Source: Streptomyces violaceusniger (GTDB lineage: Bacteria; Actinomycetota; Actinomycetes; Streptomycetales; Streptomycetaceae). From it: DNA of 64,000 bases. Every line of letters begins with the position of its first letter. Position 1 is the first letter of the stretch. Location of the stretch: NCBI GenBank assembly GCA_005405945.1, contig BJHW01000001.1, positions 868,001 through 932,000 of the forward strand, in the 5' to 3' direction. This document shows, in pieces, positions 777-25,078 of this stretch. The notes below the pieces were generated by a model. That model did not search any database and was not told the origin of the DNA. It was given only the letters and a program-made list of their open reading frames with translations. A program made the position numbers and the translations under genes.

Positions 777-790
777 TACAATCCAAATTA

Positions 791-810
791 GGTAGGTAGG
801 TCTACCTATC
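791..810. promoter_or_regulatory. Palindromic operator upstream of tetR
   Basis: GGTAGGTAGGTCTACCTATC is a near-perfect 20-bp palindrome (9 of 10 arm positions pair if the central G/T step is set aside). It sits 15 bases upstream of the tetR start at 776, in an AT-richer patch. TetR dimers typically bind such sites and repress their own operon. Its assignment to this TetR protein is inferred from position. Confidence 0.65.
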
Positions 811-1847
811 ATATCAGTGGGATCGCGCCCGTCGGCGAGCTGGGAGAACGATGACGGTGGTCGGCCACTTGACCCCGGACATGCTCTTGCTGGCAGACCG
901 TGCCTTCGACAGCAACGAACTGCTCGCAGACATCGCAGCCCAGGGGGCGCAGTTCCTGATTCGTGCCACCAGCACCCGACGCCCGCCGGTGCTGGCGCTG
1001 CTACCCGACGGCTCCTACCTGACCCGGATCGCGGGCCTCCCGCTACGGGTGATCGAGGCCGAGATCCACTCCCGCACCGCCGACGGCGGCGACTTCGGTG
1101 GGACCTACCGCCTACTGACCACGCTCAGCGACCACCGCACCGATCCCGCCCACCACCTGGTGCGTCTCTACCACGAGCGCTGGGGTGCGACACGAAGTCG
1201 CACGAGTTCGAGTGAATTGCCTGAAGGGGGACGACAGTTGATGTCGACAGCGTAGTTCCGGGCCAGTGCTCAAGGCCTGTCCCCACTTCGGCATGCGTCG
1301 CCGGTAACGGCGGGGTGTGAAGCCCGGAGGAGAAGCCCAAGGACTCCCGTTCCATCCGGGGGTTACAGGCAAGGGGAAGACCGGACGGGTGAACGCGAGT
1401 GAACCCCTGATGATGCTTCGTGATCGTGGGCCCCGCCGATGGGAGGTTCCAGCGGGGTGCAGGACTGGCCGCTGAGAAGCGGCAGGCGCCGGCTGAACAC
1501 CCAACGTCAGCCGGGAGAGCATCGCCGTCCCGGAGTTTAGGGGGCACCCACCCCGGTCGTATCTCACTCGTGTGGAACGTGGAAACCCCGTTGGGGTCCG
1601 GGCGCGAAGCGCCCGGTCAGCCGACCGTGAGGAAGGCTCAACTCCCCAGCGGGCACAGGATGACCCAAGAAGCCAATGCCGGTGGCCGAAAGGCAGCGGG
1701 AAACCGAAGCACGTGGCCAGCACCTCCGCTGGCCGCTTCGGATAACCGGCCGGATACGGGATCTGCCCGGACCCGAAAGGGTGCTGACGTGGGTCAGGTG
1801 GGCCTGTGGGGAACCGATGACCATCAGCACCGGAACCGAAGGACAAG

Positions 1848-3650: not shown

Positions 3651-3723
3651 GCCGGATGCGGTCAACGCCGCCCGTCCGGTTCTGAGGGGGGTGCGGCGCA
3701 GCAATGCGCCGCACCTACCCGAC
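3649..3723 (+). ncRNA. Group II intron domains V and VI
   Basis: Domain V spans 3649-3682: GAGCCGGATGCGG pairs with the distal CCGCCCGTCCGGTTC around a GTCAAC turn, giving the standard 34-nt catalytic hairpin with an AGC-type triad near its base. Domain VI follows at 3683-3723, with a 10-bp GC-rich stem and an unpaired A at 3717, seven bases from the 3' splice site, as expected of the lariat branch point. Confidence 0.88.
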
Positions 3724-4185
3724 AGATCGAGATCACCTACCTGGCGCTCCGTCACACCCTGCTCAGAGGCCGAGTCCTACGGTCGAAGGACCCAGTGGGT
3801 CTCAACCAGGACATGTGGGGACTGCTCACCCTCTACCAGGCCCTGCGCTCGGTCATGGTGACCGCCGTGGAGACAATGCCCGGCTGCGATCCCGACCGGG
3901 CCGGCTTCACCATCGCTCTGGAGGCCGCCCGCGACACGGTGGTCAGCCTTGTCGGAACGACCCCGGCCTCAAGGCCGAGCAGCCGCTCCGACCTGGTGGG
4001 ACACATCGGCGTCCGTGTCCTGCACGCGCTGCTCCCCGGGCGTCGGCTGCGGCTGTCCGCCCGCATCGTCAAGTGCGGAACCTCCCGCTACAACATCTGG
4101 AACCGCGACGGGCGTCCACGCGACAGCACACCGATCACCGCTATCGAGATCACCGTGCATCCACCGGCTCTCCCCAGTGAGATCG

Positions 4186-4243
4186 TTTCATCCTGAAGTC
4201 GCAGGTCGCGGTACTGGTGTGAGTCTGTGACGGGGTGCTCGTG
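4186..4243. repeat. Left terminal inverted repeat of the IS5-like element
   Basis: A 58-bp end whose reverse complement matches 5759-5816 in four blocks (TTTCATCCTGAA, TCGCAGG, CTGGTGTG, GTGCTCGTG) with equal spacing. It overlaps the stop codon of the IS4-type transposase remnant. Confidence 0.75.
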
Positions 4244-4280
4244 TTGGCAGGAGTCGTGATCGTCAGCGGGAGATCGTCCG

Positions 4281-5114
4281 TCAGCGTTGGACTTCGGAGT
4301 TCGCCAGGACGAGCAGTGCCCGCAGCAGGATGGTGGCGTGACGGGTGTTCATGCGGACCTTGGCCAGGACGCGCCAGGTCTTGAGATTCGCGAAACCGTG
4401 CTCGTTGGCCGCGCGTTCGCGGCTGACCAGGCGGTTCGCCTCCTTCTCGGCCTCGGTGAGGCGGTGGGAGCGGGTGGTTTTGAAGCCGGTGATGATGACG
4501 GGATCGTCGTCGGGGTGGTCGTCCAGGCCGACGAAGCCGAGGTCGGCCAGGGCCCCGAGGCCGGCCTCGCGCAGATGCGCGGTGATCTTGTCATGGCGGG
4601 CGGCGGTGATCTCACTGGCCCGTCCGGGGCGAGCCGAGGAGATCCAGATCAGGTTGCCCCTCTCGTCGGTGAGGGCGAGGAAGAGCAGGCCGTGGGCCTT
4701 ATGTTTCCCGCTGTAGTTCTTGCGGTTGGCTGTCCCGGTGCGGCGCCGGGTGCGGACCAGGGTGCCGTCCAGCAGGACCACCACCCCGCCCCGCCTGGCG
4801 ATCTTCTTCAGAGCACGGTCCAGGCGCGGGGCCCGGGCGGACAGCAGACCGATCACCTCCAGGACCCAACGGCGCACGGTGGCGGCCGACACGTTGTTGC
4901 CGCCGGCCATGTCGGCCAGGCGCTGGTCGTGGCGCAGGACGGCGAGCACGACGATCGCCTGGGTGCCGGGAGCGGCCTTGCGCCAGCGGGTGCCCAGCTG
5001 CTTGCGCCTGCGGCGTATCAGGCCGGCGACGAGATCGACGATCCGCTTCGACAGGGGAAGCCGGACCTGGTAGACAACGCCGGGAGAGCCCTCGGCGGGC
5101 GGCTGCTTCTTCAC
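4281..5114 (-). CDS. IS5-family DDE transposase
   Basis: A 277-residue protein with a helical N-terminal region and a DDE catalytic domain of the DDE_Tnp_4 type. The likely catalytic residues are D116 (in VVLLDGTLV), D191 (in ALADLGFVG) and E238 (in AANEHGFANLKTW). The length is normal for the family and no lesion is seen. It cuts and rejoins the ends of the surrounding element. It is transcribed after the accessory gene at 5181-5645 on the same strand, inside the 58-bp inverted repeats. Confidence 0.88.
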   Translation of the reverse strand: MKKQPPAEGSPGVVYQVRLPLSKRIVDLVAGLIRRRRKQLGTRWRKAAPGTQAIVVLAVLRHDQRLADMAGGNNVSAATVRRWVLEVIGLLSARAPRLDRALKKIARRGGVVVLLDGTLVRTRRRTGTANRKNYSGKHKAHGLLFLALTDERGNLIWISSARPGRASEITAARHDKITAHLREAGLGALADLGFVGLDDHPDDDPVIITGFKTTRSHRLTEAEKEANRLVSRERAANEHGFANLKTWRVLAKVRMNTRHATILLRALLVLANSEVQR

Positions 5115-5180
5115 ACAGGCGCCAACTCCCGCCGGGGGCCCTCGCGTTACGGCCGGAACCGGCCGGACCGCCGCCGGTGG

Positions 5181-5645
5181 TCAGCGCGGCAGACAGCGTC
5201 CCGAGCCCGTGCGCGACAGCCAGCCCCGGTCCGATAGCTTGCGCAACTGGCCGCGGACCGGCTCGACCTTGCCCGGGGTGTTCTCCCGGCCCAGCGCGAG
5301 CGCGACGTCCTTGGCCATCACAGGCCCTGACGCAGTCGTCACGATCTCCATGATCCGCCGGTACTCCGGCGTGAGCGCCTCTGTCCCCCCCTCCTCGCGG
5401 TCCGGGATCAGCCGCATCCCGGCCGCCCCGGGTGTCGCCACCACCCGCTCCGGATCCGGCCCGGGCTCCACGGCCGGCGACGACTGCCGTCCGCCGTCCG
5501 TCGCCTCGGCCCACTGCCCGAACACCACCTCGGCGGCTTCCAGCCGGGCCAGCTCGGCGTCGGTTTCCGCCAGTTCCTTGCGCAACACTTCGGCCCGCTC
5601 AGCCAGCTGCATCCGCCGCTCGATCGTCCACGTCAGCACGTCCAC
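5181..5645 (-). CDS. IS accessory protein: coiled coil plus winged-helix-like domain
   Basis: About 154 residues, read from GTG at 5645 with GGAGGGAGG just upstream; the longer frame to 5732 has no good ribosome binding site. The N-terminus (DVLTWTIERRMQLAERAEVL to EAAEVVFGQW) is a charged coiled coil. A proline-rich linker follows, and the C-terminal 60 residues (EYRRIMEIVTTASGPVMAKD, then GQLRKLSDRGWLSRTG) look like a winged helix. Similar proteins are common beside Streptomyces transposases. Because it lies inside the terminal repeats it is probably carried by the IS, perhaps binding DNA as a regulator or transposition helper; this role is inference. Confidence 0.65.
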   Translation of the reverse strand: MDVLTWTIERRMQLAERAEVLRKELAETDAELARLEAAEVVFGQWAEATDGGRQSSPAVEPGPDPERVVATPGAAGMRLIPDREEGGTEALTPEYRRIMEIVTTASGPVMAKDVALALGRENTPGKVEPVRGQLRKLSDRGWLSRTGSGRCLPR

Positions 5646-5758
5646 CCTGTGCCTCCCTCCTGCCGCGGAGGCTACGAGGCACCCCGGCAAACCACCCAAG
5701 AACCCGGGAAGTCCCCCGTGGCAGACGATCACCTGCTACCGATCAGCCCTCGGAGCAC

Positions 5759-5816
5759 CACGAGCACACCACTCTCCGCCCACACCAGCGGCCTGGCCTG
5801 CGAATTCAGGATGAAA
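5759..5816. repeat. Right terminal inverted repeat of the IS5-like element
   Basis: Reverse-complement partner of 4186-4243. Its outer edge abuts the MFS pseudogene, whose C-terminal codons are replaced by IS sequence from about 5818 leftwards. Confidence 0.75.
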
Positions 5817-6268
5817 ATGGATCAACAGGAGCAGTTTCCGCCGCCCGATGCGGTTGATCACGGCGAGTCCGGCGAGGGTGCCGAGCAGGAAGAGGACGTT
5901 GATACCCGCCTCCCCGACGTTCGAGAGGGCACCGTCGAGGTGGAGGGCGTCGAACAGCGTCGGCCCGAACGCGTAGATCGCGAAGAGGGGGATGATGGAG
6001 CAGGTCCAAAAGGCGATGATGAACGCGAGCCGTCCGAGGTAGCCGGAGCACACCAGCGCTCGTGCCGGCAGTGGTGTCATCTCCTCGGGGAGGTCCGACA
6101 GCCGTGCGCCCGGGCCGAAGACCTTCCGCAGCAGCTGCTGGGCCTCGTTGTAGCGGCCTTGCTTGAGTAGCCAGCGTGGTGACACCGGGGTTCCGAACCG
6201 GAGGAGCGCGATGCCCGTTGCAGGGATGGCTGGGCTGAGCAAGAGCCAGCGCCACCCGTCGGGTCCTA

Positions 6269-7160
6269 GGTTCTGTCGTCAAATGTCACGCCCACATCAG
6301 CAGGGCTGCGAGGGTGACTGCTGCTTGGTAGGACTCGGTGGTCTTGTCGTACCGGGTGGCGATGCCGCGCCACTGCTTCAGCTTGTTGAAGCACCGTTCC
6401 ACCACGTTGCGCCGCTTGTAGGCGTCGCGGTCGAAGGCCGGGGGCCGTCCACCACGGCTGCCGCGGTTCAACCGGTTGCGGACCTGGTCGGCTCGCTCGG
6501 GAATGGTGTGGCTGATCCCGCGCCGACGCAGCCAGCTTCGGATCGCCCTGGAGCTGTAGCCCTTGTCGCCCAGGACGTGTGAGGGCCGCACCCGGGGCCG
6601 TCCCGGACCCATCCTGGGCACCCGGATCGCCTCCATCACGGCGATGAACTGGGTGCAGTCGTTGGTGTTGCCGCCCGTGACGGTGAAGGCGAGCGGGCGG
6701 CCGGCGCCGTCGCAGGCCAGGTGAATCTTGCTGGTCAGGCCGCCTCGGGAGCGTCCGAGCGCCGGGTTGCGGAGCCCCCTTTTCGGGCGCCGGCGGCATG
6801 CTGGTGGGCGCGGACGATCGTGGAGTCGACCGACACAAGCCAGTCGATGTCCCCGGCGGCGTCCGCCCGGACCTGGGCGGCGCGGAGCATCCGCTCGAAC
6901 GTGCCGTCCGCCGCCCACCGGCGAAAACGGGTGTGCAGCGTGGCCCACGGCCCGTACCGCTCGGGCACGTCCCGCCAGGCCGTGCCTGTACGGAACTTCC
7001 ACACGATCCCGTTGAGGACCCTGCGGTCGTCCAGCCGCTTGCGCCCACGCGACGACACGGGCAGCAACGGCCGGACGAACTCCCATTCGGCATCGGACAG
7101 TTCATGGCGACGTATCACCCGACCATGATCCACCACTCAAGATCATTTGAATACACTGCC
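6269..7160 (-). mobile_element. IS5-family (IS427-group-like) insertion sequence, copy 1
   Basis: An 892-bp element flanked by TA at both ends within CTAG targets. Its ends start GGCAGTGTATTCAAATG and GGTTCTGTCGTCAAATG, an imperfect inverted repeat with 12 of 17 matches. Encoded proteins are identical over full length to those of the copy at 54316-55207, which lies in the opposite orientation. It interrupts MFS transporter 1. Confidence 0.9.
6286..7136 (-). CDS. IS5-family transposase made by -1 frameshifting (copy 1)
   Basis: Two overlapping frames. The first (7136 to 6735) encodes the N-terminal domain with LSDAEWEFVRPLLP and the first catalytic Asp in WLVSVDSTIVRAHQH. The second, in the -1 frame and ending at 6286, encodes GRSRGGLTSKIHLACDG, VLGDKGYSS with the second Asp, and the Glu in RNVVERCFNKLKQW. 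The overlap contains an A4-G5 run after codon CGA, a plausible slippage site. Fusion gives a complete DDE transposase of about 280 residues. Confidence 0.85.
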
Positions 7161-7693
7161 TAGAGCCTGCAGCGCGATTCCGACCAGGTAGGCGACAGTG
7201 GCTCCGAGGAACCAGACGGCGATCATGGCGCCCAGCATCGGCCCGCGGTAGCGGCGTGGCATGAACTCGGCGAGCAGCGAGGTCGCGATCGGGTAGTCTG
7301 CCCCGACCGCGATGCCGGTCAGCAGCCGCAGGACAAACAGCGCAAGTGCGCCTTCGATGAAGTACTGCGCCACCGACGTCGCGATGATCAGGAGAAGGTC
7401 CACTGTGTACATGGCCTGGCGGCCGAAACGGTCGGTGAGGAAGCCGAACACTACGCCGCCGAAGAGCATGCCGATGAGGGCGGAGGCGCCGATCAGGCCC
7501 TGCCACGCGGCCGAGAGGCCGAACTTCGGGACGATCTGCACGAGGGAACGGCCCGCCCGAGCTGTAGACGGCCAGTCGTTTGTGGAAGGGACCGAAGGGC
7601 GCGTCGTCAAGGACGCTTCTGTTCGCCGGGGGCCGGTGTCCGTCGGGTCGGCCTGCCGGATCCGTGTGGGGAGGCGATCGTCGGAGTGATTAC

Positions 7694-9053
7694 TCATCGT
7701 TTGTCGTCTTCCAACTGGGACACCGCGGTCGGCTGGGCGGGATCCTGAGGGGACAGGGCGCTTGCCTCGTCGAGTTCCAGCCCACCGGTCTCGGGAGCCC
7801 AACGCAGCGAGGCGAGGAACCCGACGACGAGGATGGCGGCGGCGAGGATCATGGTCGGGCCGATGCTGAGCGAGGCGAGGGCGATGGGGACGACGTAGAC
7901 GCCGATCGCGGAGCCGATGCGGGTGATGGCGGTGACCAGTCCGACCGCGGTTCCGCGCACGCTGGTCGGGAACAGTTCGTTGGGATACACCCAGGTCAGC
8001 ACCTGCGGGCCGCCGTTGAACACCGAGAAGCCAGCGAACGCGAGCAGGACGACCCAGGTCGGGGCGCTGGGAAAGAGCCCCATGACCAGCAGCATGAGCC
8101 CGGCGAGCAGGGAGCCCCAGATGACCATGGGCCGCCTGCCGGTCCGGTTGATCACGAGCAACGCGACGACGACACCGATCAGGAAAAGCACGCTGAGCGC
8201 TGCCGAGCCGATGTTGGCGTTCGCCTTGCCGAGCCCCAGCGCGTCCAGGATCTGAGGCCCGAAGGCGTAGATCGCGAACACCGGGATGTTCGAGCAGGTG
8301 TAGAAGGTGACGACGTAGGCGAGACGACCGAGGTAGCCACCGCGCAGGAGGTCTCGCGCGGTCGTTGGCGCGGTCGACGGGACGGCCAGATCGGTGGTAG
8401 TCACGGTGTCGCCGTACACATCGCGCAGGACCTGGGCGGCCTCGGCGTCCCGTCCGCGGGACAGCAGCCACCGCGGCGACTCGGGGGTGCCGAGCCGGAG
8501 GAATAGCAGCACGGCCGCAGGGACGGCCGAGCTGAGCAGCATCCATCGCCAGCCGTTCGGGCCGAGCACAGTCAGGGCGTTGCCGACTACGTAGGCCGCG
8601 ACGGCGCCGACGAAGAACATGCACACCAGCCCGCTCAGCATCGGTCCGCGGTACCGGCGTGGCATGAACTCCGTGACTAGCGAGGACGCCATCGGATAGT
8701 CGCCGGCGACGAAGACGCCGAGCAGCAGCCGCAGGACAAGTAGCTGGGGCACGTCGGTCACGAAGAACTGCAGGATCGACAGCACCGCGATCGCGCCTAG
8801 GTCGAGGGTGTACATGACCTGACGGCCGAACCGGTCGGTCAGCCACCCGAACACGCTCCCGCCGATCAGCATGCCGACCAGCGACGCGGCGCCGAGCAGG
8901 CCCTCCATGCCGGGGGAGACGCCCAGCTGCGGCGTGATCTGGACCAGTGCGACCCAGGATGTAGCCGTCAAGGAACGGTCCGCCAGCCGCGTAGAGGGCC
9001 AGGCGCTTATGGAATCCGGACAGTGGCATGTCGTCCAGGGCGTGCGAGCTCAC
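7694..9053 (-). pseudogene. MFS transporter 2 with an N-terminal frameshift
   Basis: The main frame (8971 to 7694) encodes about 425 residues of an MFS porter with GWLTDRFGRQ, FMPRRYRGPM, ESPRWLL and NRTGRRP motifs, so eleven membrane segments are intact. The start and first segment (SSHALDDMPLSGFHKRLAL and GGPFLDGYILG) are in another frame, from GTG at 9053 with GGGGAG upstream. The two frames meet near 8955, inside membrane segment 1. Either the gene is dead, a base was missed in sequencing, or a shortened protein is made. It is divergent from the thioesterase gene at 9296 across two GntR-type operators, so it is probably the uptake system for that pathway. Confidence 0.8.
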
Positions 9054-9161
9054 GATGACTCCCCTTGTCGTGTCGAGCGATGGCCCGAGCCGACCCGGAC
9101 GGCGAAGTGGCGCCGAACGGAGCCGAGGCGCAAGTGTCGAGGTACCTTCGATTACCAGGAG

Positions 9162-9180
9162 TTACTGGTCTGGCCAGTAA
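9162..9180. promoter_or_regulatory. FCD/GntR-type operator, site 1
   Basis: TTACTGGTCTGGCCAGTAA is a perfect 7-bp inverted repeat around a 5-bp centre. The core TGGTC-N-GGCCA recurs at 9262 and 11214, all beside genes of the cluster that contains the GntR regulator at 10385-11176. Confidence 0.7.
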
Positions 9181-11176: not shown

Positions 11177-11213
11177 CGCGCCGAGTTCCGCGCATGGCCT
11201 TCACGCGCCATGT

Positions 11214-11232
11214 CCAGAGGTCTGACCAGTAA
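11214..11232. promoter_or_regulatory. FCD/GntR-type operator, site 3
   Basis: The segment around AGGTCTGACCAGTAAT keeps the GGTCTG and CCAGTAA arms of site 1. It lies directly before the enoyl-CoA hydratase ribosome binding site AGGAG at 11234-11238, so this gene has its own controlled promoter or a second operator. Confidence 0.6.
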
Positions 11233-11246
11233 TAGGAGTGTTTCTA

Positions 11247-12007
11247 GTGAACTATCAGACACCAGTGCTCGTCGATCACCAGGATCGCGTCGCGGTAGTC
11301 ACGCTGAACCGCCCCTCATCACTCAACGCGATCAACCTCGCTCTGCTGACCGGGCTCGTGGAGGCGCTCCGCACCGTCCAGGACGCCGACGCGATCGTCG
11401 TCCAGGCCTCGGGCCGCGCGTTTTGTGCGGGCGAGGACCTGAAGGAGACGCTGGCGCCGACGAGCGGATCACTGGAGGAGCTTCGCCGCTCGTTCGACCT
11501 GCTGCAGGACGTGACCCGGCTGATGGCCGGGGCGCCGTGCCCGGTGGTCAGCGCGGTCCAGGGCTACGCCGTGGGGGCGGCGCCGAGATCGCGCTGGCCG
11601 CCGACCACGTGGTGGCCGGGCCGCAGGCGCGGCTGAAGTTCCCCGAGGCGTCCATCGGACACGCGCCCACGGGCGGCATCACCTCCCGGCTGCCCGCCAT
11701 GGTCGGCCTGCTGCGAGCCAAGGAGCTGCTGCTCAGCGGACGCTGGGTCGAGCCAGAGGAGGGCCTTCGCATCGGCCTGTACACCGAGCTGCACGACGAG
11801 CCGTCCGCGCGAGCCGTCCAGGTGGCGGCCACCTATGCGGCCGCGCCGCAGCGCTCGCAATCAGCCGTGAAGCGCGCGATCGAGCTAGCTGCGGCCCCGA
11901 CCTTGGAGACCAACCTCCGCCTTGAGGTTGAGACCGCCACCTACTGCTTCCAGTCGCCCGAGACCGCCGAAAGCTTCGTCCGGTTCGGGGCCAAGGGCCG
12001 GCCCTGA
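11247..12007 (+). pseudogene. Enoyl-CoA hydratase/isomerase with a one-base frameshift
   Basis: The first frame, from GTG at 11247 (AGGAG eight bases upstream), encodes the crotonase N-terminus with VTLNRPSSLNAINLAL, the oxyanion-hole loop ASGRAFCAGEDLKE and VVSAVQGYAVGA. The second frame continues as AEIALAADHVVAG, FPEASIGHAPTGG and the C-terminal helices to 12007. The shift is near 11575 in a run of five G; one extra G gives the expected GYAVGAGAEIALAADH. The whole reads as a normal hydratase of about 253 residues. It may be a fresh pseudogene or a sequencing error. The predicted role is hydration of an enoyl-CoA made by the following ligase pathway. Confidence 0.85.
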
Positions 12008-13665: not shown

Positions 13666-14068
13666 CGACGGAGGTCCATTAACGAAGGAGACACGGACGA
13701 TTTCGCTCTGAACCTGGTCGCCAAGGCACGCATCCACGCGCTCACCAGGACGGACGCCACTTCGTGGTGGGCTGGTCAAATCTCCGCCCTCACGCGCTAC
13801 CGCGCGAACTGGCAACGAGGGGCCAGTTCCACCGAGACCCGACCATGCGTACCACGGGCGGAGAAGCCCGCCACTGATTTCCAAAGACAGAGCGAAAAGG
13901 ACCCAGTGCCGGCACCAAGGTCCCCCACCGCACGGCCGGGAACTCGTCGCGTCCGAGGTCGGCGAGCTGCGTCAACTGCGGAAACCCCTGCGGCAGTTCG
14001 TCACCGGGCCCGGACGCGCCGAGGTCTTTCTGGAGGGCGAGCTACGCGCCCTGGGCCTCACCGTCGAG
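13666..14068 (+). pseudogene. Upstream coding remnant of the pPIWI-RE associated nuclease/helicase, without start codon
   Basis: Right after the ligase stop the same frame stays open and reads protein-like sequence without an ATG, GTG or TTG (DDFALNLVAKARIHALTRTD, then WWAGQISALTRYRANWQRG). At a run of five C at 13922-13926 the protein-like reading moves by one base into the frame of the 14069 gene: HGRELVASEVGELRQLRK, then TGPGRAEVFLEGELRALG. The latter segment provides the first helix expected of the nuclease fold. The real gene therefore begins upstream of ATG 14069. Either one C is surplus here or the gene is frameshifted, and its original 5' end was probably lost at the junction with the ligase. 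A GTG at 13906 with AAGGA upstream is one possible restart. Confidence 0.55.
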
Positions 14069-17000
14069 ATGTGGCCCGGCTTCGACGCGTACGACCTTCG
14101 CATCACCTTCCCCGACGGTCATGTGTGGGCCGTCGACGTCAAGGACTGGGCACACCCCGCCTTCCTCGGACGCGCGGCCACCGCCGTCCGACCCGAGCCC
14201 CCGTACGACGAAGCATGTTGGGTGGTGCCCGCGTTCCGGGTGTGCGCCCGCCGTGACTACCTGGCCATATACGCCAAGGAGCGGGGCGTGAGGGCGGGCG
14301 GTCTTCGGCTGCTGACGGACGACCAGCTGAAACAGACCGCGCGGCTGCGGCTCTCCGGTGAACGCGGGCCGGACGCGTCCATCGCGCCCCTGCACACCGT
14401 GCCTCCGGCCAGGGAGTGTGACCGCAGCAGCTGGTACCAGCCGATCGTCGCCGCTCTGAAGCCTTGGCCCGAAGAACACGCAGGGACTCGCCCCGCTCTG
14501 CTCTGCCAGGTCGAGCTCGCCCTGCGGCTGATGGAGACCGTGGCGCCCGGTCACGCTGCCGCCGGGGCGTGGACGCTCCTCGGCGGCTACGGCCTCGCCT
14601 TCGCACGAGCCTCGAAGCTCGGCACCGGCACCACCGAACAGGTCGCGTTGGCCGCGGCCCGTCACCTGCTCTGGCCGATGCGCCGCGGCCGGATGTGGCA
14701 GCAGAGCCTGGACGCCTACCTGGAATTGCCCGAACGGCTGCGCGCGTACCGCGTCCCGGCAGCCGGGGAGCCCGCCTATCGGGTCCCCCTCAAGGTGGCG
14801 GCCGACCGCTTCACCACCTACGACGACGCTCTCGCGAAACTCCCTGGCTTCGCCACGAAGGCGCTTCCCCCGGCGGAGGCGGGCGAGCACCGCTTCATGG
14901 ACCGCCGTAACCGACGTACTTCCGTCACTGTCCCCGACGATCTCGTTCGGGACCCCTTCCCCGGCCACCCTCTCACCGCCGAACGCCCGGCCACCGCAGG
15001 CCCCCTCGACGTGCCACTCGACGAACTCGCCGACATCGCACGGTGGATGGACGCGGAGGAGCAGCGGCGTGGGCTCAAGGCGGGGAACTGGGAGCAGCGT
15101 CTCGCTCAACTCGACCTCGACACCCGTACCCCGGACGGGACAGTCTTCGAAGCGGCGTCCGCCCTGCCGCTCGACCGGCTCACCCACCTCGTCGGCATGG
15201 TCGGCGCCGGCAAGTCGACCTTGATGACCCTGCTCGCCGTCTGGGCGTACCACAACGGCCTGCGGATCACTCTCGTCGTCGGCGACGTGGCCGAACAGCT
15301 GACGCTGACCGAGCTGTTCCGCACGCTCGGCCTGAGCGCCGCCCTGGTGCAGGGGGGCACGACGCGGCCCCAGCACACCCAGCGGCTGCACCGCAGACTC
15401 GCTGCACGGGGAGAACACTCACTACTGGCGCACACCGGACCAGTCTTCGCCCACCTCAGCACCGCCTGTCCGCTGGATGCCCTGCGCGCGCTCGACACGT
15501 CCGAGCCGCTGCGCTACACCGACGCGCCTTGCGGTGCTCTTCACCCCACCCGGCGCCAGGGGACCGCCGAGGAGCCCGCGGCCGAGCGCGCAGTACGCGA
15601 GCTCGAACGAGCCCGAGGCGCCGTCGACGGGGAGGGCGCCACGGACGACACCGACACCGACGAGGAGGACCTGGGCACCCCGCACGCCTGCCCCCTGTGG
15701 AGCGTCTGCCCCCGGCACTCCGCCGCGCGTGACCTCGTGGACGCGCTGATCTGGGTAGCCAACCCAGCCAGTCTCGTCCAGACGGCGGTTCCGCGGCAGC
15801 TCAACGCCGAGCGCCTGCGCTATCTGGAGCTGGCCTGCCTGCGCAGCGACATCGTCGTCGTCGACGAGGCCGACCGCGTACAGATGCAGCTCGACCAGAT
15901 GTTCGCCCCGTCGGCCACGCTCGTCACCACCGGTGTCTCCGACTCCTGGCTCGACCAGCTGCAGACCCACGAGATCGCCGAACTCGCCCGGCAGGGACGG
16001 CTGCAGCTCTCCGACCAGGACGTGGAACGGTGGTCCGCCGCCCTGGACGTCGTAGGTTCCGCCGCGGACCGGCTGTACGCCATGCTCATCGACGACGGAA
16101 GCCTGCGGGACTGGGCGCAGATCGACTACTTCAGTGCGTGGACTCTCCAGGAGAAGCTTCTGCACGCCTGGTACCCGCTGGCGCGAGGCGAGGCCACCGG
16201 GCGACCGGACAGCACGAACGAACGGGACGTCGAGGACGAGGGCGCACTTTACGAGGACGAGGATGGGCTCGGGGCCGATGGCGACTCCACCGTCCCCGAC
16301 GCTCCCTGGGCGCGGCGACGCACCGAGATCACCGGGTTCTTCGACACGTTCCGCGACGATCCGCTCGGCGGACGCGGCCCCTACGGGACCCCCGCCGACG
16401 AACTCACCGCCCTTGCCCACGACGTCCTGCACACCCTCGACGAGAAACAGACACGGCGCCGTGTCCGCGCGCTCCTGGACTCCCTCCTGGTCGGAGCGCC
16501 GGGCCCGGAACAGCGCCCCATGCCCGCTGCCGAGCGAGGCAAGGAGCCCGCCCCCGAGGACGTACCGCTCACCGAGGAGTGGCGGGAACTCAACGCGCGG
16601 CGGCTGGAGTTCACCCTCGTCCTCGCCGCCCTACACCAACGGCTGGACCGGGTGACGTTCCTCTGGCCTCAGGTGGAGGCCGCGCTACGGCTGGACTCGG
16701 CGGCCCACGAGCTGACCCGCCGCCCGCCGCTCGACTACGCGCCACTGCTGCCCGAAGCGCCCATGGGCAACGTCCTGGGCTTCCAGTACCTGGTGGACGA
16801 ACGGGCTGCCGCGCGCAACGAGGACGGACACCGCACCGGCACCCTGCGCTTCTTCCGTTGCGCGGGCGTGGGCCGGGAACTGCTCCTGCTCCTGGGACTT
16901 CCTCAGCTCGGCGCCGACCCGGGCCTCGGGAAGGCAGGCCCACACGTGCTGCTGATGTCGGGCACCAGTTGGGCCGGCACCTCTACCCGGGCCCATGTCC

Positions 17001-18190
17001 TCGCTCCCGTCCGCGCCGTGCTGAAGCCGCAGCGCAAGGCTCTCGACGCCATCCGGGAGACCGTGTTCCGCACCGAGTTCCTCTACGACGCCGCAGGACA
17101 GCCGATCCGGCTCTCCGGCCAGGGCCCCGACCAGCGCGAGGATGTCTTGCGCCTGATGATCGACCGGCTCGCCCGGTCCCGGAGCGACGGCAATTCCTCC
17201 CCTCTCCAGAGCGAACTCGCCCGAATCCCCGACCAGCGCCGCAAGCGTGCCCTGCTTTTGGTGGGCAGCTACGCGGAAGCCAAGGTAGCCGCCACCACCC
17301 TGAACGAGATCCCGCGCTGGCGTGGCCGGGTCCGCGTCCTGGCCGCAGACGACGCCGAACTGGAGGCCGCCATCGACGGGACGGCACCGGCGCGGAGCCA
17401 GACGCCGGGCACGGGATGGGGTGCGGGAGCGGTCCGGCGTGGAGACCTCGCGTCCTTCGCCGATGACCCGGACGCCGAACTGCTCGTGGCGCCCCTCCTC
17501 GCCGTGGAGCGAGGGCACAACATCCTCACCACCCCCCAGCGGCCCGGCGAGGAGAAGGTGGCGGCGTTCGGGACGGTGTTCTTCCTGGTCCGCCCGCACC
17601 CCCGCCCCGACGACCTCTCCCTGGCGGTCTTCGCCATCAACGACTGGGCGACGCGGTTCGTACGCGGTCAACTGAAGCTGCCGGACGAAGGGACGTTCAG
17701 CGACATGGTCACCCAGGCGGGGGACCTGAACGCGGCGAGCAGTGCTTTCAGGACCACCGCACGCGGCGTTTGGCGGCACGTGCTGTCACGGCCCTACATC
17801 TACTCTTCGCTCTCCGATGACGAGAAGAAGTCCTTCGTCTGGGACCAGCTCGTCACCATCTGGCAGGTCATCGGGCGCCTCGTCCTCGGTGGCGTGCCCG
17901 CCCGCGTCGTGTTCGTCGACGCTGCCTTCGCACCCCGACTCGCTGCGGGACAAGCGCCCTTCACTGGCCAGAACCGGCGTCCACGCCGCTCGGGCGACCC
18001 GGGGCTGCTGGTCAGGCTAAGGGACGTTCTGGCTCCGTACTTCGCCCAGACCGACACGGACACCGACGCCGTCTGGTACGGCGCGTGCACCGATCCCGCC
18101 GACGCCGCACTCGTCCAGTTGCTCTACCGCCCGCTCTACGAAGCACTGTGCGCCATGGGGACGTCACCCGGCCCGCGACCGGTCGACTGA
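14069..18190 (+). CDS. pPIWI-RE system protein: PD-(D/E)xK nuclease fused to DinG-like helicase
   Basis: The open frame is 1373 residues from ATG 14069, although coding continues upstream. The start region has a restriction-endonuclease core: D9 in FDAYDLRITF and D23-V-K25 in WAVDVKDW. A superfamily 2 helicase follows: Walker A GMVGAGKST at 376-384, DEAD box DEAD at 599-602, motif IV-like LLLVGSYAEAK, motif V-like VAPLLAVERGHNIL, and motif VI WQVIGRLVLGG with Q1266, G1269 and R1270. Between Walker A and DEAD lie C467, C488, C541 and C547, a possible Fe-S ligand set as in DinG/XPD. The next gene, a pPIWI-RE protein, starts 81 bases downstream. Nuclease, helicase and pPIWI-RE are predicted to act together against invading DNA or R-loops; function is not demonstrated here. 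Confidence 0.85.
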   Translation: MWPGFDAYDLRITFPDGHVWAVDVKDWAHPAFLGRAATAVRPEPPYDEACWVVPAFRVCARRDYLAIYAKERGVRAGGLRLLTDDQLKQTARLRLSGERGPDASIAPLHTVPPARECDRSSWYQPIVAALKPWPEEHAGTRPALLCQVELALRLMETVAPGHAAAGAWTLLGGYGLAFARASKLGTGTTEQVALAAARHLLWPMRRGRMWQQSLDAYLELPERLRAYRVPAAGEPAYRVPLKVAADRFTTYDDALAKLPGFATKALPPAEAGEHRFMDRRNRRTSVTVPDDLVRDPFPGHPLTAERPATAGPLDVPLDELADIARWMDAEEQRRGLKAGNWEQRLAQLDLDTRTPDGTVFEAASALPLDRLTHLVGMVGAGKSTLMTLLAVWAYHNGLRITLVVGDVAEQLTLTELFRTLGLSAALVQGGTTRPQHTQRLHRRLAARGEHSLLAHTGPVFAHLSTACPLDALRALDTSEPLRYTDAPCGALHPTRRQGTAEEPAAERAVRELERARGAVDGEGATDDTDTDEEDLGTPHACPLWSVCPRHSAARDLVDALIWVANPASLVQTAVPRQLNAERLRYLELACLRSDIVVVDEADRVQMQLDQMFAPSATLVTTGVSDSWLDQLQTHEIAELARQGRLQLSDQDVERWSAALDVVGSAADRLYAMLIDDGSLRDWAQIDYFSAWTLQEKLLHAWYPLARGEATGRPDSTNERDVEDEGALYEDEDGLGADGDSTVPDAPWARRRTEITGFFDTFRDDPLGGRGPYGTPADELTALAHDVLHTLDEKQTRRRVRALLDSLLVGAPGPEQRPMPAAERGKEPAPEDVPLTEEWRELNARRLEFTLVLAALHQRLDRVTFLWPQVEAALRLDSAAHELTRRPPLDYAPLLPEAPMGNVLGFQYLVDERAAARNEDGHRTGTLRFFRCAGVGRELLLLLGLPQLGADPGLGKAGPHVLLMSGTSWAGTSTRAHVLAPVRAVLKPQRKALDAIRETVFRTEFLYDAAGQPIRLSGQGPDQREDVLRLMIDRLARSRSDGNSSPLQSELARIPDQRRKRALLLVGSYAEAKVAATTLNEIPRWRGRVRVLAADDAELEAAIDGTAPARSQTPGTGWGAGAVRRGDLASFADDPDAELLVAPLLAVERGHNILTTPQRPGEEKVAAFGTVFFLVRPHPRPDDLSLAVFAINDWATRFVRGQLKLPDEGTFSDMVTQAGDLNAASSAFRTTARGVWRHVLSRPYIYSSLSDDEKKSFVWDQLVTIWQVIGRLVLGGVPARVVFVDAAFAPRLAAGQAPFTGQNRRPRRSGDPGLLVRLRDVLAPYFAQTDTDTDAVWYGACTDPADAALVQLLYRPLYEALCAMGTSPGPRPVD

Positions 18191-18271
18191 AACACGTCGA
18201 CCACCGCCCCGAGCAGCGCTGTTGGCGATCTACCCCATCGCCTACGCATGGACATCGCAGGGAGAACCGAC

Positions 18272-21200
18272 ATGTACAAGAACATCCGCCGATCCGCGTA
18301 CCACCTGGCCGAGGAGGGCAACCCCTGGACCGAAGACTTCCACGCACTCCCCTTCCCCGAACACTGGCATGCCGGACTCCTCGAACTGCACAACCACGGG
18401 CGGGACGAGGAGAAGCGGCAGCAGACGCTGCCCACCCGCCGACTCGACGGCGTGCTCCAGACCCTCGCCCCCGACGTGATCGTCCGCCCCCGACCACGTA
18501 TCCCCGTCGAGCCGGGGCCGCAGGCCGCCGAGGACTTCTGGATGTACGTACCGGCCTCAGCACCTGACCCCCTACCGGGCCGTTCCATGCAGCAACTCCT
18601 CGATGCCTGGCTCCGTACCCTCGGTCCCAAGGACTCCGCACAGGATCCCCGGTTCCGCTCACTGTTGCTCGCGAGCAGCACCGAGCTGAAGCGGAACCTG
18701 CCCGAGTGGCAGCCGGTCACCGGCGTCGAACTTCTCACCACCCCGACCACTCAGGGCGGCACCGCCGCCCCGGAACCGCGCCAGTTCCAACTCGCCACCG
18801 ACGCCCTGGCACGCCGCATCCTGACCCTCGATCCCTTCCCGTTCGAGGGCGGGGAGCTGCGGTTCCGAGCGCTGCCCCGCGGACCTCGCGACCAGGGTGC
18901 GGAACTCATGTCGCAGCCTCTGTGCCGGACCGTCAAACGCAAGGAGTGGTGGTTCTCCGTCATCCTGAACATCTCCCTGCACACCACGCCGTTCGACCCC
19001 AGGCCGCGGCTCCACCTGCACTGGGGTGTACGCCGCTGGGCGACCCACCCTCGGGCCACCACCAAACGCCTCAACCTGCCCTACCGGGAGGCCACCACGG
19101 TCTACCTGCGGCCCACCATCCCCTGGCTGCCCGGCGCACCGGCCACCGAACGCTACGCACTGGCACGCCTGCGCCGCGACAGGGCCGCCGACACCTTCGT
19201 CTGGTCGGAGAACGACACCGCCGGCATCCTGCGCGGCCTCAGCCTCGCCGGCAACTTCCCCGACCCCGAACAGCTCCTTACCGAACCGGTCTCCTGGATC
19301 AGCGAGGGCCGCGGCGTCCGCGGCGCCGTGGTCCACAGCACCAGGATGGGCAAGCATGAGATCGGCACCGGCTTCATGCCCAACCAGCGAGCCCAGCTCA
19401 CCGAATGGGCTGAGCAGGCCCTCCCTGAAACACTGGCCCGAGTACCCGACCTCACGCGCGGACGCGGCAAGGGCATCGGCGCGCCGGAGAACCGACGGCC
19501 CAAGCCCAGAACCGACGAGGCCAAGAAGGCCGAGCTGCTGCGCGAGACCCAGGCACGGCGCGTGGCACTCGCCGCACAGGCCCGGATCGCCTCCCACGGC
19601 CCGGAACAGGCCGGCACGCCCGTAGTGGAGGCCCGTCTGCTGTGGCAGTCGCCCGAGGTACGCGGCGAGGCAGTGGAACAGTTCGCCAAAGCCCTGGGCC
19701 TCGACGGCGACGGCGGCGCCAGTGCCGCCCACGTCACCGACCGGGACTTCGACGAGGCCACGCCCGGAGCACCGGTCGTCCTGGAGTGGCGGACGGCGGA
19801 GGTCACACTCCGGCTGCGCTGCCTGCCCCTCGCCGACGGACTGGGCGACCGGCTCGTGCCCGACCCGGTGGCCAAGGGCAAAGGCGCGGCGCTCGCGGCA
19901 GCCGTTGCCAAACGGCGCCGCGCCCTGCGCGCCTGGCTGCGCGCGGACGGCGCGGACCCCTCCCGCCCTGAACTCGCCCTCGTGGAAGTCGCACACCGCA
20001 GCACTTTCCGCCCGGCGTCGACGGACCCCAAGTTCGCCATCCGCCTCGGGTGCGCCGACGCGGGCCTGCTGACTCAGTTCGTCGTCACCCCGTCCACCGA
20101 CCGGCAGATCGACAATGCGGAAAGCCTCGACCACCGCACGTACAGCTCGTGGCTCGACGGACTGCGCCAGCTCGGCGTCCGCGTCCTGCCCCAGCACACC
20201 CTCGGTGACGATCTTCCGGACTCGCTGCAATACGCGGCGGTGTGGATGGTGAAACGTCGCAAGGACGGCCCGACCCGGTTGCCCAAGCACCTGCCTGTGG
20301 CCGTGCTCGTCACCCCGCTCCCGGCAGGGGAAGGCCTCGCGGCTGTACGCGGCTGGGATGACACCGCGGGGGAATGGGTGCCCTATCCGCAGTTCCTCCT
20401 CGGTCTGGTGAAACAGGCGGAGATCGGCCCCGAAGCGTTCACGGAACCCGAGACTTCAGACGATGACGCGCGTCCCGATGCCCCTCGGGTCACCGGCAAG
20501 CAGTGGCGCAGTAACCTCGCCCAACAGCGCAGGGAGACCGCGGCATTCCTCCAGCGCGTGCTGCACTCCCTCCGAGGACAACCCACCGCACTGATCACCC
20601 ACGCTCAGAACAGCCGACTGCACTGGCCATGGCTCCAGGACGGCCAGACCGAACGCGACCTGATCAAAACCGGCCATGCCTCGGCAGGCCGGCTGGACGA
20701 CGAACTCCGCCTCGTACGTGTGCGCGGGTGCGGCGGTCGCGAGAGCGCCCAATGGTGGGGCCTGGCCGACCCGGGCAAGCCCCACGGACAGCCGGCCGGC
20801 TTCTGGGCACAGAATCCACAGCAGCGGTACAGCGACGGGGCTTCGTCGCGCGAGCGGGTCTTCTACAGCACCACCGAACGCCCAGGAACCCATGCAATCT
20901 CCCCCGCACTCGACCGCCTCGCCACACGGGTCAACGCGGCAGGCAACCTCACCTCGCAGGCGGGCACCAGCGCCTGGAACCCGACCCTGGTGGAGATCGC
21001 GGTACTGGGCTGCCACGAAGACGACGACTCAGCGGCCCCTGTACTGGAAAAGCCCGACGACCCCGAGGCTCTGGCCCTCGCCATGCACCAGCTCCGGCAG
21101 GCCCCGGACTACGCCGCCGCCCTGTCTCTCCCCCTCCCCCTCCACCTCGCGGGGCTGGCCCAGGCATATGTCCTCCCGACACTCGCCGACATCGACCGGA

Positions 21201-21319
21201 CTTCGAGCGAGGAGTCGGACACACCTGCTGGAAACCAGAGCTTGGAGGACCCAGACCTCGCCGACGCGGCCGGGCTGTCCACGACGCCGGACGACGAGGC
21301 CGAGACTGCCAACGACTGA
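18272..21319 (+). CDS. pPIWI-RE family protein (prokaryotic PIWI with conserved Arg and Glu)
   Basis: About 1015 residues from ATG 18272, preferred over ATG 18248 because GGGAGA lies six bases upstream. The N-terminal half matches the DUF3962/pPIWI_RE_X type, followed by a MID-like region (EARLLWQSPEVRGEAVEQF) and an RNase H-like PIWI region. Its marks are QNSRLHWPWLQDG with R782, WNPTLVEIAVLGC with E908, and the C-terminal LPLPLHLAGLAQAYVLP. Members lack the usual Argonaute catalytic tetrad and carry Arg and Glu instead, so guide or R-loop binding rather than slicing is predicted. It follows the nuclease-helicase gene in the same operon. No lesion is seen. Confidence 0.88.
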   Translation: MYKNIRRSAYHLAEEGNPWTEDFHALPFPEHWHAGLLELHNHGRDEEKRQQTLPTRRLDGVLQTLAPDVIVRPRPRIPVEPGPQAAEDFWMYVPASAPDPLPGRSMQQLLDAWLRTLGPKDSAQDPRFRSLLLASSTELKRNLPEWQPVTGVELLTTPTTQGGTAAPEPRQFQLATDALARRILTLDPFPFEGGELRFRALPRGPRDQGAELMSQPLCRTVKRKEWWFSVILNISLHTTPFDPRPRLHLHWGVRRWATHPRATTKRLNLPYREATTVYLRPTIPWLPGAPATERYALARLRRDRAADTFVWSENDTAGILRGLSLAGNFPDPEQLLTEPVSWISEGRGVRGAVVHSTRMGKHEIGTGFMPNQRAQLTEWAEQALPETLARVPDLTRGRGKGIGAPENRRPKPRTDEAKKAELLRETQARRVALAAQARIASHGPEQAGTPVVEARLLWQSPEVRGEAVEQFAKALGLDGDGGASAAHVTDRDFDEATPGAPVVLEWRTAEVTLRLRCLPLADGLGDRLVPDPVAKGKGAALAAAVAKRRRALRAWLRADGADPSRPELALVEVAHRSTFRPASTDPKFAIRLGCADAGLLTQFVVTPSTDRQIDNAESLDHRTYSSWLDGLRQLGVRVLPQHTLGDDLPDSLQYAAVWMVKRRKDGPTRLPKHLPVAVLVTPLPAGEGLAAVRGWDDTAGEWVPYPQFLLGLVKQAEIGPEAFTEPETSDDDARPDAPRVTGKQWRSNLAQQRRETAAFLQRVLHSLRGQPTALITHAQNSRLHWPWLQDGQTERDLIKTGHASAGRLDDELRLVRVRGCGGRESAQWWGLADPGKPHGQPAGFWAQNPQQRYSDGASSRERVFYSTTERPGTHAISPALDRLATRVNAAGNLTSQAGTSAWNPTLVEIAVLGCHEDDDSAAPVLEKPDDPEALALAMHQLRQAPDYAAALSLPLPLHLAGLAQAYVLPTLADIDRTSSEESDTPAGNQSLEDPDLADAAGLSTTPDDEAETAND

Positions 21320-21785
21320 CGACGGCATCGACACATGCGCAGTGCCTGACGCCGGAGGACACCGGTATCCACAGGGCCTGTGTTCTGAGAGACCGACGAC
21401 AGCCCCTCCGTGCACCCTTCTCTACTCGTGTGCGCGGTCCAGCGGAGGAAGGCGGAACACTGGGGTGACCGTGACCAGTTCTGGTCTGGCCGCAGCGTCG
21501 GTCACGTCGCCATCGGTACCCTCGCCGCCGGCGCGGTCAGGCCTTTCTCCTCGCTCATCCCGTTCCAGGGTTCGAACCTGCAACCGCTCACTCGACAGCA
21601 CGTCTGACGAGCCAAGTCACGCTCTACTGGCCGTTCCCGCATCTCACAACCGTTGCACAGTTACGCGGGAACTCTTGGGAATGGGCAGGTAGAAGGGGAA
21701 CCCCCTCAACAAAAGACATCCCTGACCTGGGTAAACTCCCAGGTCAGGGCCATGGGGCAGACGAGTCGGGCTGTATGCCGGAGAC
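21320..21785. other. No convincing gene; contains a tRNA T-arm-like motif
   Basis: No frame here has convincing protein features. On the minus strand near 21566-21590 the motif GCAGGTTCGAACCCTGG resembles a tRNA T-arm, but no acceptor, D-arm or anticodon arm can be folded around it. It might be a remnant of an attachment site. Confidence 0.4.
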
Positions 21786-23374: not shown

Positions 23375-25078
23375 GTGATCCGTTTCGCCTTCGCCGGACG
23401 CTGTTCGACCGAGGACCTCCAAGACCCCGAGGCCTCCAGAAACTGGCAGCTCACCCGCGCCCGAGCCCTGATCGAACCCGCCGGCGGTCACATCGTCACC
23501 GAGTACTTCGATGTCGGCCACAGCCGCTCGCTTCCCTGGCAGCGCCGCCCACGCGCCAACGACCTCCTCCAGGCCCTCCGCAACCCCAACCGCGGCTTCG
23601 ACGCCGTCGTGATCGGCGAGCCGCAGCGCACCTTCTACAGCAATCAGTTCGGCAACACCTTCCCCGTCTTCGTCCACTTCCACATCCCCCTGTGGGTCCC
23701 GGAGATCGGCGGCCCGATCGACCCGGACAATGAAGCCCACGACCTCGTCATGTCCGTCTTCGGCGGCATGAGCAAGGGCGAACGCAACCGCATCAAGATC
23801 CGGGTCCGGACCGCCATGAGCTCCCAGGCCCAGCTCCAGGGCCGCTACCTCGGCGGAAGACCTCCCTACGGCTACCGGATCACTGACGCCGGACCCCACC
23901 CCAACCCCTCCAAAGCCGCCGTCGGCCAGCGCATCCACAAACTCGAACCCGATCCCGCCGCCGCACCCGTCGTGCAGCGGATCTTCTGCTTGTACATCGA
24001 CGGCATGAGCGACAAAGCCATCGCCGCTCAGCTCACCCGCGACGGCATCCCCTGTCCCTCCGCCCACGACGCCGCCCGCAACCCGCACCGCAAGAAGACC
24101 GCGTGGCAGCAGGGCGCCGTGCGCGCCATCATCATCAACCCCCGCTACACCGGCTACGAGATCTGGAACAAGCAACGCAAGGAAGAACGCCTCCTCGACG
24201 TCGACGACGTCACCCTCGGCCACCGCACCAGCATGACCCACAACCCGGTCGGGGAGTGGATCCGCTCCAACGAACCCGCCCACGAAGCGATCATCAGCTC
24301 CAACCGGTTCGACACCGTCCAAACCCTCCGCAGACAGCGCGCCCGCAACCAGGGACGCCAGGAACGAGCCGGAAAACAAGGCGGACGCCCCTACGCCCTG
24401 CGCGGACGGGTCCGCTGCACCCTGTGCGGACGCAAGATGCAGCCCGCCACCATCCGCAACCACGTCTACTACCGCTGCGAATTCAAAGACCAGGAACAAG
24501 CCCTCTACCCCGGCCTCACCCACCCGCGCACCGTCAACCTGCGCGAAGACGTGGTGTGCCGTGCCCTGGACCAGTGGATCGCCCGGGCCTTCGCCCCCGA
24601 CCGGCTCACCGTCACCCTCACCGCCCTCACCCATGCCAGCGCCGCGGCGAGCACCGCAGAAACCCACACACCCGAGCAGGCCCAGGCAAGCCAGGCGATC
24701 AAGGACTGCGAGCGACGACTCGCCCGCTACCAGGCAGCCCTCGAAGCCGGAGCGGACCCAGCCGTCGTCACCCAGTGGATCAACGCAGCACAGCAAGACA
24801 AGGAGACGGCGCAGAGGAATCTCGACGCGCTCCCCACCCTCACCCGGAAGAAGCAATCCCCACTCGACGCCCAGCAGATCCGCGAGATCACTGACAGCCT
24901 TGGAGACATTGCACAGCGCATCCAGACGGCCGAGGTCGACAAGAAAGGCCCGCTCTACGAAGCCCTCGGCATCACCATCAGTTACGAACACGCAAAGAGG
25001 ACCGCGACCGTAAGGTCGAGGCCCTCATCACCGTATCGTCAGTGGTTGTGTCCGAGGACCGACACTGGGCCAACGTAA
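23375..25078 (+). CDS. Large serine recombinase (integrase)
   Basis: 567 residues from GTG 23375. The N-terminal resolvase domain has the catalytic Ser in GRCSTEDLQDP (S11). The central recombinase domain has GRYLGGRPPYGYRI, then GMSDKAIAAQLTRDGIPCP and NPRYTGYEIWNKQ. A zinc-ribbon region (CTLCGRKMQ, then YYRCEF, about 348-370) and a long coiled-coil-rich C-terminus complete the usual large serine integrase layout. It would integrate or excise a mobile element at a short att site, forming a phosphoserine link. No phage structural or conjugation genes are beside it, so its element is mostly lost or is the DUF2637/pPIWI stretch to its left. Confidence 0.93.
   Translation: MIRFAFAGRCSTEDLQDPEASRNWQLTRARALIEPAGGHIVTEYFDVGHSRSLPWQRRPRANDLLQALRNPNRGFDAVVIGEPQRTFYSNQFGNTFPVFVHFHIPLWVPEIGGPIDPDNEAHDLVMSVFGGMSKGERNRIKIRVRTAMSSQAQLQGRYLGGRPPYGYRITDAGPHPNPSKAAVGQRIHKLEPDPAAAPVVQRIFCLYIDGMSDKAIAAQLTRDGIPCPSAHDAARNPHRKKTAWQQGAVRAIIINPRYTGYEIWNKQRKEERLLDVDDVTLGHRTSMTHNPVGEWIRSNEPAHEAIISSNRFDTVQTLRRQRARNQGRQERAGKQGGRPYALRGRVRCTLCGRKMQPATIRNHVYYRCEFKDQEQALYPGLTHPRTVNLREDVVCRALDQWIARAFAPDRLTVTLTALTHASAAASTAETHTPEQAQASQAIKDCERRLARYQAALEAGADPAVVTQWINAAQQDKETAQRNLDALPTLTRKKQSPLDAQQIREITDSLGDIAQRIQTAEVDKKGPLYEALGITISYEHAKRTATVRSRPSSPYRQWLCPRTDTGPT

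Follow-up and report, generated by a model that had tools for sequence, protein, structure and literature searches.

Does the pPIWI-RE locus of Streptomyces violaceusniger encode a new kind of nuclease-helicase effector, or does its unusual gene arrangement have another origin? The locus lies in a 64,000-nucleotide stretch of DNA that we call the window (assembly GCA_005405945.1, contig BJHW01000001.1, positions 868,001–932,000). A first-pass annotation made from the letters alone had described it as a PIWI-fold protein beside a PD-(D/E)xK nuclease fused to a DinG-like helicase. Comparison with related loci indicates that this fusion is a deletion scar, seen in the window copy alone among everything examined. 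We observed two lesions in the window copy, separate genes in its relatives, a six-gene layout around those genes, and intact-looking methyltransferase, kinase and helicase motifs. We consider it likely that the window holds a truncated copy of a six-gene pPIWI-RE island, probably without full function. Its intact relatives likely restrict DNA of foreign origin, with a helicase and nucleases recruited through a guide, and are predicted to label the cell's own DNA by methylation. The most plausible reading of the window copy is that of a relic, truncated recently, of what was likely a methylation-coupled, guide-directed restriction system.

Two long adjacent frames on the + strand make up the locus in the open reading frame list, 14069–18190 (1373 aa) and 18248–21319 (1023 aa). 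The second matched three Pfam families, all over cut-off (pPIWI_RE_X, E = 2.1e-130; MID_pPIWI_RE, 4.7e-41; RNaseH_pPIWI_RE, 1.6e-83), as well as the PADLOC model PprPIWI at 1512 bits, and a profile search of the whole genome returned a single RNaseH_pPIWI_RE match; these domains bear out the proposed pPIWI-RE membership of the protein starting at 18272. That ATG is its likely start, with a ribosome site of -8.1 kcal/mol compared with -4.7 for 18248, which places the gene, with its X, MID and RNaseH/PIWI domains, at 18272–21319 in a frame open from 18248. The first frame matched pPIWI_RE_Z (E = 3.6e-54, residues 139–302, positions 14483–14974) and PprDinG (1093 bits), confirming a DinG-like helicase rather than an unrelated ATPase. 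Both the Z domain and the Cys-rich insert expected of a pPIWI-RE island DinG were present. The helicase also keeps its Walker A (residues 376–383, positions 15194–15217), DEAD (599–602, 15863–15874) and QVIGR (1266–1270, 17864–17878) motifs, and Cys 467, 488, 541 and 547 (codons at 15467, 15530, 15689 and 15707), each conserved in at least 95% of 27 relatives. At its beginning, the same frame matched pPIWI_RE_REase (E = 2.1e-32, residues 1–98), entering the profile at position 20 of 117, while the match to PADLOC PprRE was limited to model positions 250–340 of 340. The order of a restriction endonuclease (REase) remnant, DinG and pPIWI-RE on the + strand is that of pPIWI-RE islands.

The four nearest relatives (loci L053, L032, L040 and L048; 93–96% DNA identity) aligned to the window by BLASTN in blocks covering 13903–14416 and running from 14418 on, and thereby located two lesions. 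On the left, similarity stops at 13903, within the part of the REase gene that encodes the Zn ribbon, so that everything upstream of residue ~223 is lost, including the Y domain and most of the Zn ribbon (three of four Cys). The remnant of the REase gene, pprRE (13903–14416, + strand), delimited by BLASTN, a 22-protein alignment and the partial Pfam and PADLOC matches, retains native residues ~223–393 of 422; a nuclease is indeed joined to the helicase as annotated, but as a remnant and not as a complete enzyme. On the right, at 14416–14418, BLASTN and the junction alignment showed 86 bases of L053 (10349–10434) replaced by one base, a net loss of 85 bp. The deleted bases comprised the REase end and stop codon, and the helicase AGAAGGGAGC (Shine-Dalgarno) and ATG. 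This net loss put the REase and helicase in a single reading frame, an outcome expected of roughly every third deletion, and left pprDinG (14418–18190, + strand; delimited by Pfam, PADLOC, BLASTN and motifs) without its native start. According to alignment, start analysis and a structural model, the first ATG, GTG or TTG of the fused frame (14069–14071) corresponds to Met278 of the REase, where core strand 1 ends, and has a weak ribosome site. The native PprRE appears, from the alignment and a predicted model with weak to middling fold matches, to have a PD-(D/E)XK core with E, D and DxK residues, and E262, E266, D283, D286, D300 and K302 were invariant in the 22 rows. Translation from 14069 would therefore begin the REase product at residue 278, after the invariant helix-1 glutamates. 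The window copy has no separate first gene carrying the Y, Zn ribbon and REase domains.

We surveyed 77 loci for the fusion, 37 near relatives and 40 from further genomes, two collections that may contain the same species. REase and helicase were separate in all 75 loci having both genes (two lacked one or both), in different frames in 74, among them all 37 near relatives, and divided by an intervening stop in one. The two parts are thus normally separate genes, as the first-pass annotation had stated; in its view of the fusion the annotation was wrong or incomplete. Likewise, no REase domain occurred among the 120 of 394 clusters of fused-protein homologues that were listed, in which coverage reached at most 91%. 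Loci, clusters and junction alignment together rule out the fusion as a conserved architecture. As a scar seen only in the window copy, it does not represent a new architecture and does not belong to an intact island; an effector made of fused REase-DinG is not supported, and the apparent fusion is not a new effector worth chasing.

What does the intact island look like? Gene order in the near relatives agreed with the window in the succession REase, DinG and PIWI, but most carried three genes more. Across the 37 loci, we counted 36 methyltransferases, 36 kinases, 37 PDDEXK proteins, 37 REases, 37 DinG helicases and 36 PIWI proteins; all six were present in 34, of which 31 shared one order and orientation. 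The methyltransferase lies downstream in L037 and L051, and methyltransferase and kinase are arranged differently in L064. Of the three loci short of six genes, L056 and L066 reach contig ends and L067 had no kinase that we could find. In L064, the kinase relative lies inside a 1756-aa frame that reaches the locus edge (2–5269), possibly part of a larger fused protein. The hosts span Streptomyces, Streptantibioticus, Wenjunlia, Micromonospora, Umezawaea, Nocardia and others; L053 comes from Streptomyces sp. DSM 15324 and L040 from S. gardneri NBRC 12865, both with the six genes intact. Among the 34 loci long enough for comparison (L055, L056 and L066 being too short), 32 had an upstream flank in common with at least one other locus over at least 2 kb, and 7 a downstream flank.

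The extra genes are well illustrated by L053, in which they lie in the shared block upstream of REase-DinG-PIWI (3688–9174): a methyltransferase (N6_Mtase, 4.6e-31) with a weak N-terminal helix-turn-helix match, a Ser/Thr kinase (6.1e-46) on the opposite strand, and a PDDEXK_1 protein (7.6e-19) to which PADLOC gives the name PprPDDEXK. This locus contains NPPF, HRDLKPAN and DFG, which we take to be intact-looking methyltransferase and kinase motifs. PADLOC PprDinG, PprPIWI, PprRE and PprPDDEXK all match the relatives, so the link of the PDDEXK protein to the island was already known to PADLOC; the Ppr models examined, compared as models and not as system rules, name no methyltransferase or kinase. 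Within the genus, 35 of 199 genomes, the source genome included, had a helicase match. All 13 loci with a full-length helicase at 51% or more (L003–L015) had a methyltransferase relative nearby, starting 6.4–6.9 kb upstream of the helicase match in 11, and in G110 and G128 the nearby methyltransferase was more distant in sequence (35% and 43%).

The PIWI protein of the window is predicted to adopt an Argonaute fold, and the structure prediction proposed earlier gave matches to Piwi and Argonaute chains (predicted local distance difference test 77.5, predicted template modelling score 0.81), while neither window protein had a PDB sequence relative at E <= 1. In an alignment of 28 proteins, whose rows, like those of the tree below, use longest-frame starts, the MID residues E580, D593, D637 and R640 were invariant, and R821 and E916 are kept in columns conserved in 26 and 27 rows. 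These columns probably correspond to the R and E of the 2013 pPIWI-RE paper (Burroughs, Iyer and Aravind, PMC3702460), passages of which place both residues outside the catalytic set. The annotated Arg and Glu are therefore present, but they do not replace the catalytic tetrad, and the Asp columns were lost separately. Residue 785, at the end of strand 780–785, is His in the window (codon at 20600), and no Asp occurs at 686–691. Seven of the eight six-gene rows have His at position 785, and L060 has Asp; with the columns assigned by inference, Asp stands in both catalytic columns only in L125 and L126, two Nostoc proteins. The window protein thus appears to lack the catalytic Asp pair of a nuclease and is predicted to bind but not cut.

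How did the window copy arise? In the PIWI tree, the window protein groups with L048, L053 and L032, all from six-gene loci, and is nested in the six-gene clade, so its ancestor likely had six genes. The methyltransferase, kinase and PDDEXK genes are not in the window locus, where the island sequence that is left starts at 13903, partway through the REase gene. The native upstream DNA was represented in its own genome only by short kinase-like stretches and one 33-base match, and neither the Y domain nor the methyltransferase was found there. Among 294 other genomes of the genus, no match crossed 13903 by more than about ten bases. The DNA immediately upstream (13666–13902, no strand assigned) showed no relation to the island: in those genomes the first 252 bases of the query gave just two matches, each of about 42 bases, it hit no PHROG family, BLASTN similarity to the four nearest relatives began only at 13903, and the 37 near relatives gave no convincing protein match. 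We found no convincing direct or inverted repeats flanking the remnant and no tRNA in the window. Downstream, L053-like DNA at 93% (BLASTN; 21320–21647, no strand) marks the right limit of detectable island homology. At codons where the four other rows agree, window-only changes were mostly synonymous (54 synonymous to 20 not in the helicase, 39 to 6 in PIWI, 6 to 2 in the REase remnant), and the other four tips had similar or less skewed ratios for helicase and PIWI. Either the losses probably happened not long ago, or PIWI and DinG retain some role. With the methyltransferase, the kinase, the first nuclease and over half of the REase gone, and the rest joined to DinG, full function is likely lost.

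The surroundings are as had been described, with a damaged catabolic cluster on one side and mobile-element genes nearby. Two frames each carry part of an enoyl-CoA hydratase gene (profile positions 3–102 in 11238–11636 and 98–244 in 11210–12007), and roughly 2 kb downstream from PIWI, at 23375–25078, lies a large serine integrase (Resolvase, Recombinase and Zn_ribbon_recom; phrog_95). Near the left end of the window are a group II intron reverse transcriptase/maturase (RVT_1, RVT_N and GIIM; 1848–3650, + strand) and a DDE transposase (4281–5114, - strand).

For the intact island, we propose a mechanism in four steps. The PIWI protein would use its conserved MID pocket to bind a guide strand and would find the target without cutting it; it would then load the DinG helicase, which would open the target; and the REase, the PD-(D/E)XK protein or both would cut the opened DNA. 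Alternatively, the PD-(D/E)XK protein may make guides, as Cas4-like proteins are partners of Argonautes. The N6-adenine methyltransferase would protect self DNA and the kinase would gate activity. The PIWI-DinG-REase part of this scheme follows the 2013 model (passages of PMC3702460). The window has no complete gene for the third and fourth steps and has lost the helicase start, so any residual activity would be limited to PIWI binding a target and a poorly translated DinG unwinding DNA. More tentatively, as a proposal that we would rate somewhat below even chances, the island may represent a methylation-licensed Argonaute system in Actinobacteria, in which the methyltransferase marks self, the kinase gates, and nuclease-dead pPIWI-RE, DinG and two PD-(D/E)XK nucleases destroy unmarked DNA, the window being a natural loss-of-nuclease mutant.

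Could the fused protein nevertheless work as a new effector in this strain? Its single frame of 1373 codons has no stop, the D and DxK residues D283, D286, D300 and K302 lie after the start codon, and the window-only changes in the REase remnant lean towards synonymous. However, the first start codon comes only after core helix 1, which holds the invariant E262 and E266, and after almost all of strand 1. The Zn ribbon and Y domain are missing, the frame has a weak ribosome site, and an in-phase frame arises by chance at the rate given above; with the fusion in 0 of 75 loci and none of the clusters listed, we regard such an effector as very improbable. A working two-gene module, in which DinG and nuclease-dead PIWI-RE serve target binding, unwinding or repair together with host nucleases, is easier to entertain, although we still think it unlikely. 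Both frames are open with mostly synonymous window-branch changes, the PIWI ribosome site and helicase motifs are kept, a PIWI-RE knockout of Pseudomonas stutzeri is reported as ciprofloxacin-sensitive in passages of PMC10991935, and passages of the 2013 paper (PMC3702460) list stand-alone pPIWI-RE genes. Yet the helicase start and ribosome site are lost, and most of the selection signal may be older than the losses, for whose dating we found no other genome that shares the junction. It is hardly credible that the breakpoints are absent from the strain and stem from assembly or sequencing: the assembly is 97.0% complete with 4.6% contamination and the neighbouring hydratase gene is frameshifted, but small indel errors do not typically remove a net 85 bp or join a sequence to unrelated DNA, and searches of the genome recovered neither the missing flank nor the REase half.

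Several observations weigh against the truncated six-gene island as we read it. The 37 loci were found with patterns from the window helicase/REase frame and are near relatives rather than a random sample. The search of the source genome for the N-terminal half of the REase was empty but had no positive control. The helicase frame (about 1250 codons) and the PIWI frame are fully open and look selected, and DinG and PIWI may work. In passages of PMC10991935, the P. stutzeri protein is an active nuclease, and its authors infer from the ciprofloxacin sensitivity a role in DNA replication, not defence. Distant islands without methyltransferase, kinase or both indicate that some pPIWI-RE islands can do without these parts. 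Finally, the family of the island methyltransferase is common, occurring in 144 of 199 genus genomes at E <= 1e-30, which also rules out a methyltransferase exclusive to pPIWI-RE islands.

The distant loci show how variable the island is. Eight had kinase and PDDEXK with no methyltransferase match, nine had PDDEXK with neither methyltransferase nor kinase, L096 and L100 had methyltransferase and PDDEXK with no kinase match, and the remainder had three genes only or distant methyltransferase or kinase matches. In the two of those eight islands without methyltransferase that were checked, an NB-ARC/TPR (STAND-like) protein stands beside the kinase (L097, 10647–13478; L111, 3372–6176), the latter with weak BTAD and Trans_reg_C matches. 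Three Nostoc plasmid records carry three-gene islands and were the only plasmid carriers found; phage records yielded none. The three-gene island of the first-pass annotation was thus recovered in distant loci and on these plasmids, and does not describe most near relatives. Island types cluster on the PIWI tree (7 changes for 7 groups, against a minimum of 6 and a shuffled mean of 27.7), on which several long branches are unsure and L056 counts as six-gene despite a contig that stops short of the methyltransferase. Close methyltransferase relatives also occur in three loci with no PIWI (L128, L129 and L132), beside kinases and a common long protein; the copy in L128, the only one of these loci to be scanned, scores as DrmD. 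Being common and present with kinases elsewhere, the methyltransferase appears to be a component that can be reused and is coupled in these islands with a PIWI effector. In L131 (2248–12954), the same methyltransferase type lies beside a UvrD/GajB-like helicase and a 1923-aa AAA_11/AAA_12, REase_MTES_1575 protein.

How, then, does the island compare with known systems? The 2013 three-gene island (PMC3702460, from passages of the paper) has REase, DinG and pPIWI-RE on one strand, as the relatives do, with the same Y/ZnR/REase, Z and X/MID/PIWI domains, whereas the window REase is truncated and joined to DinG and most near relatives have three more genes, including the methyltransferase. Those passages stress a REase without an associated methylase and propose that an R-loop requirement spares self DNA; a methyltransferase beside the island departs from that remark. 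In its nearly fixed position beside the island in dozens of actinobacteria, together with a kinase, it offers a second answer to the problem of self-damage, marked self DNA. Among the papers listed by searches of open-licence PMC articles, with bioRxiv preprints outside their scope, we found no methylase or kinase tied to pPIWI-RE, and wider searches on defence systems added none; PMC7641849, considered as a source, deals in the passages concerned with Piwi-related proteins instead. The family has, as annotated, very little experimental support: we found one biochemical study, on P. stutzeri PsPIWI-RE (PMC10991935). Passages of this study describe a member of the same PIWI-RE family, with dinG just upstream as in the window, whose nuclease activity needs two Asp, Asp525 and Asp610, and not R and E; in the window protein the aligned columns contain no Asp. 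The six-gene layout gives this family, on which hardly any experiments exist, a concrete gene set to clone, and is the part deserving such work.

DdmDE plasmid defence, in which a catalytically inactive prokaryotic Argonaute recruits a helicase-nuclease (passages of PMC12409362; one sentence in PMC12904381 swaps the two names), is a likeness of working and not of membership. DdmD is a single helicase-nuclease protein, whereas pPIWI-RE relatives have separate nuclease and DinG genes plus methyltransferase and kinase. These last two are of the same general types as in MADS, BREX (PglW) and DISARM-like (DrmD) systems. The L053 proteins nonetheless stay below the curated cut-offs (MAD2, 20 of 720 bits; MAD6, 153 of 460; PglW, 92 of 990), and with both MAD2 and MAD6 below cut-off and a REase-DinG-PIWI effector, we rejected MADS membership for this island. 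If the proposed methylation-licensed system is real, it would join a methyltransferase-kinase chassis of the BREX, MADS or DISARM sort to an Argonaute-fold sensor.

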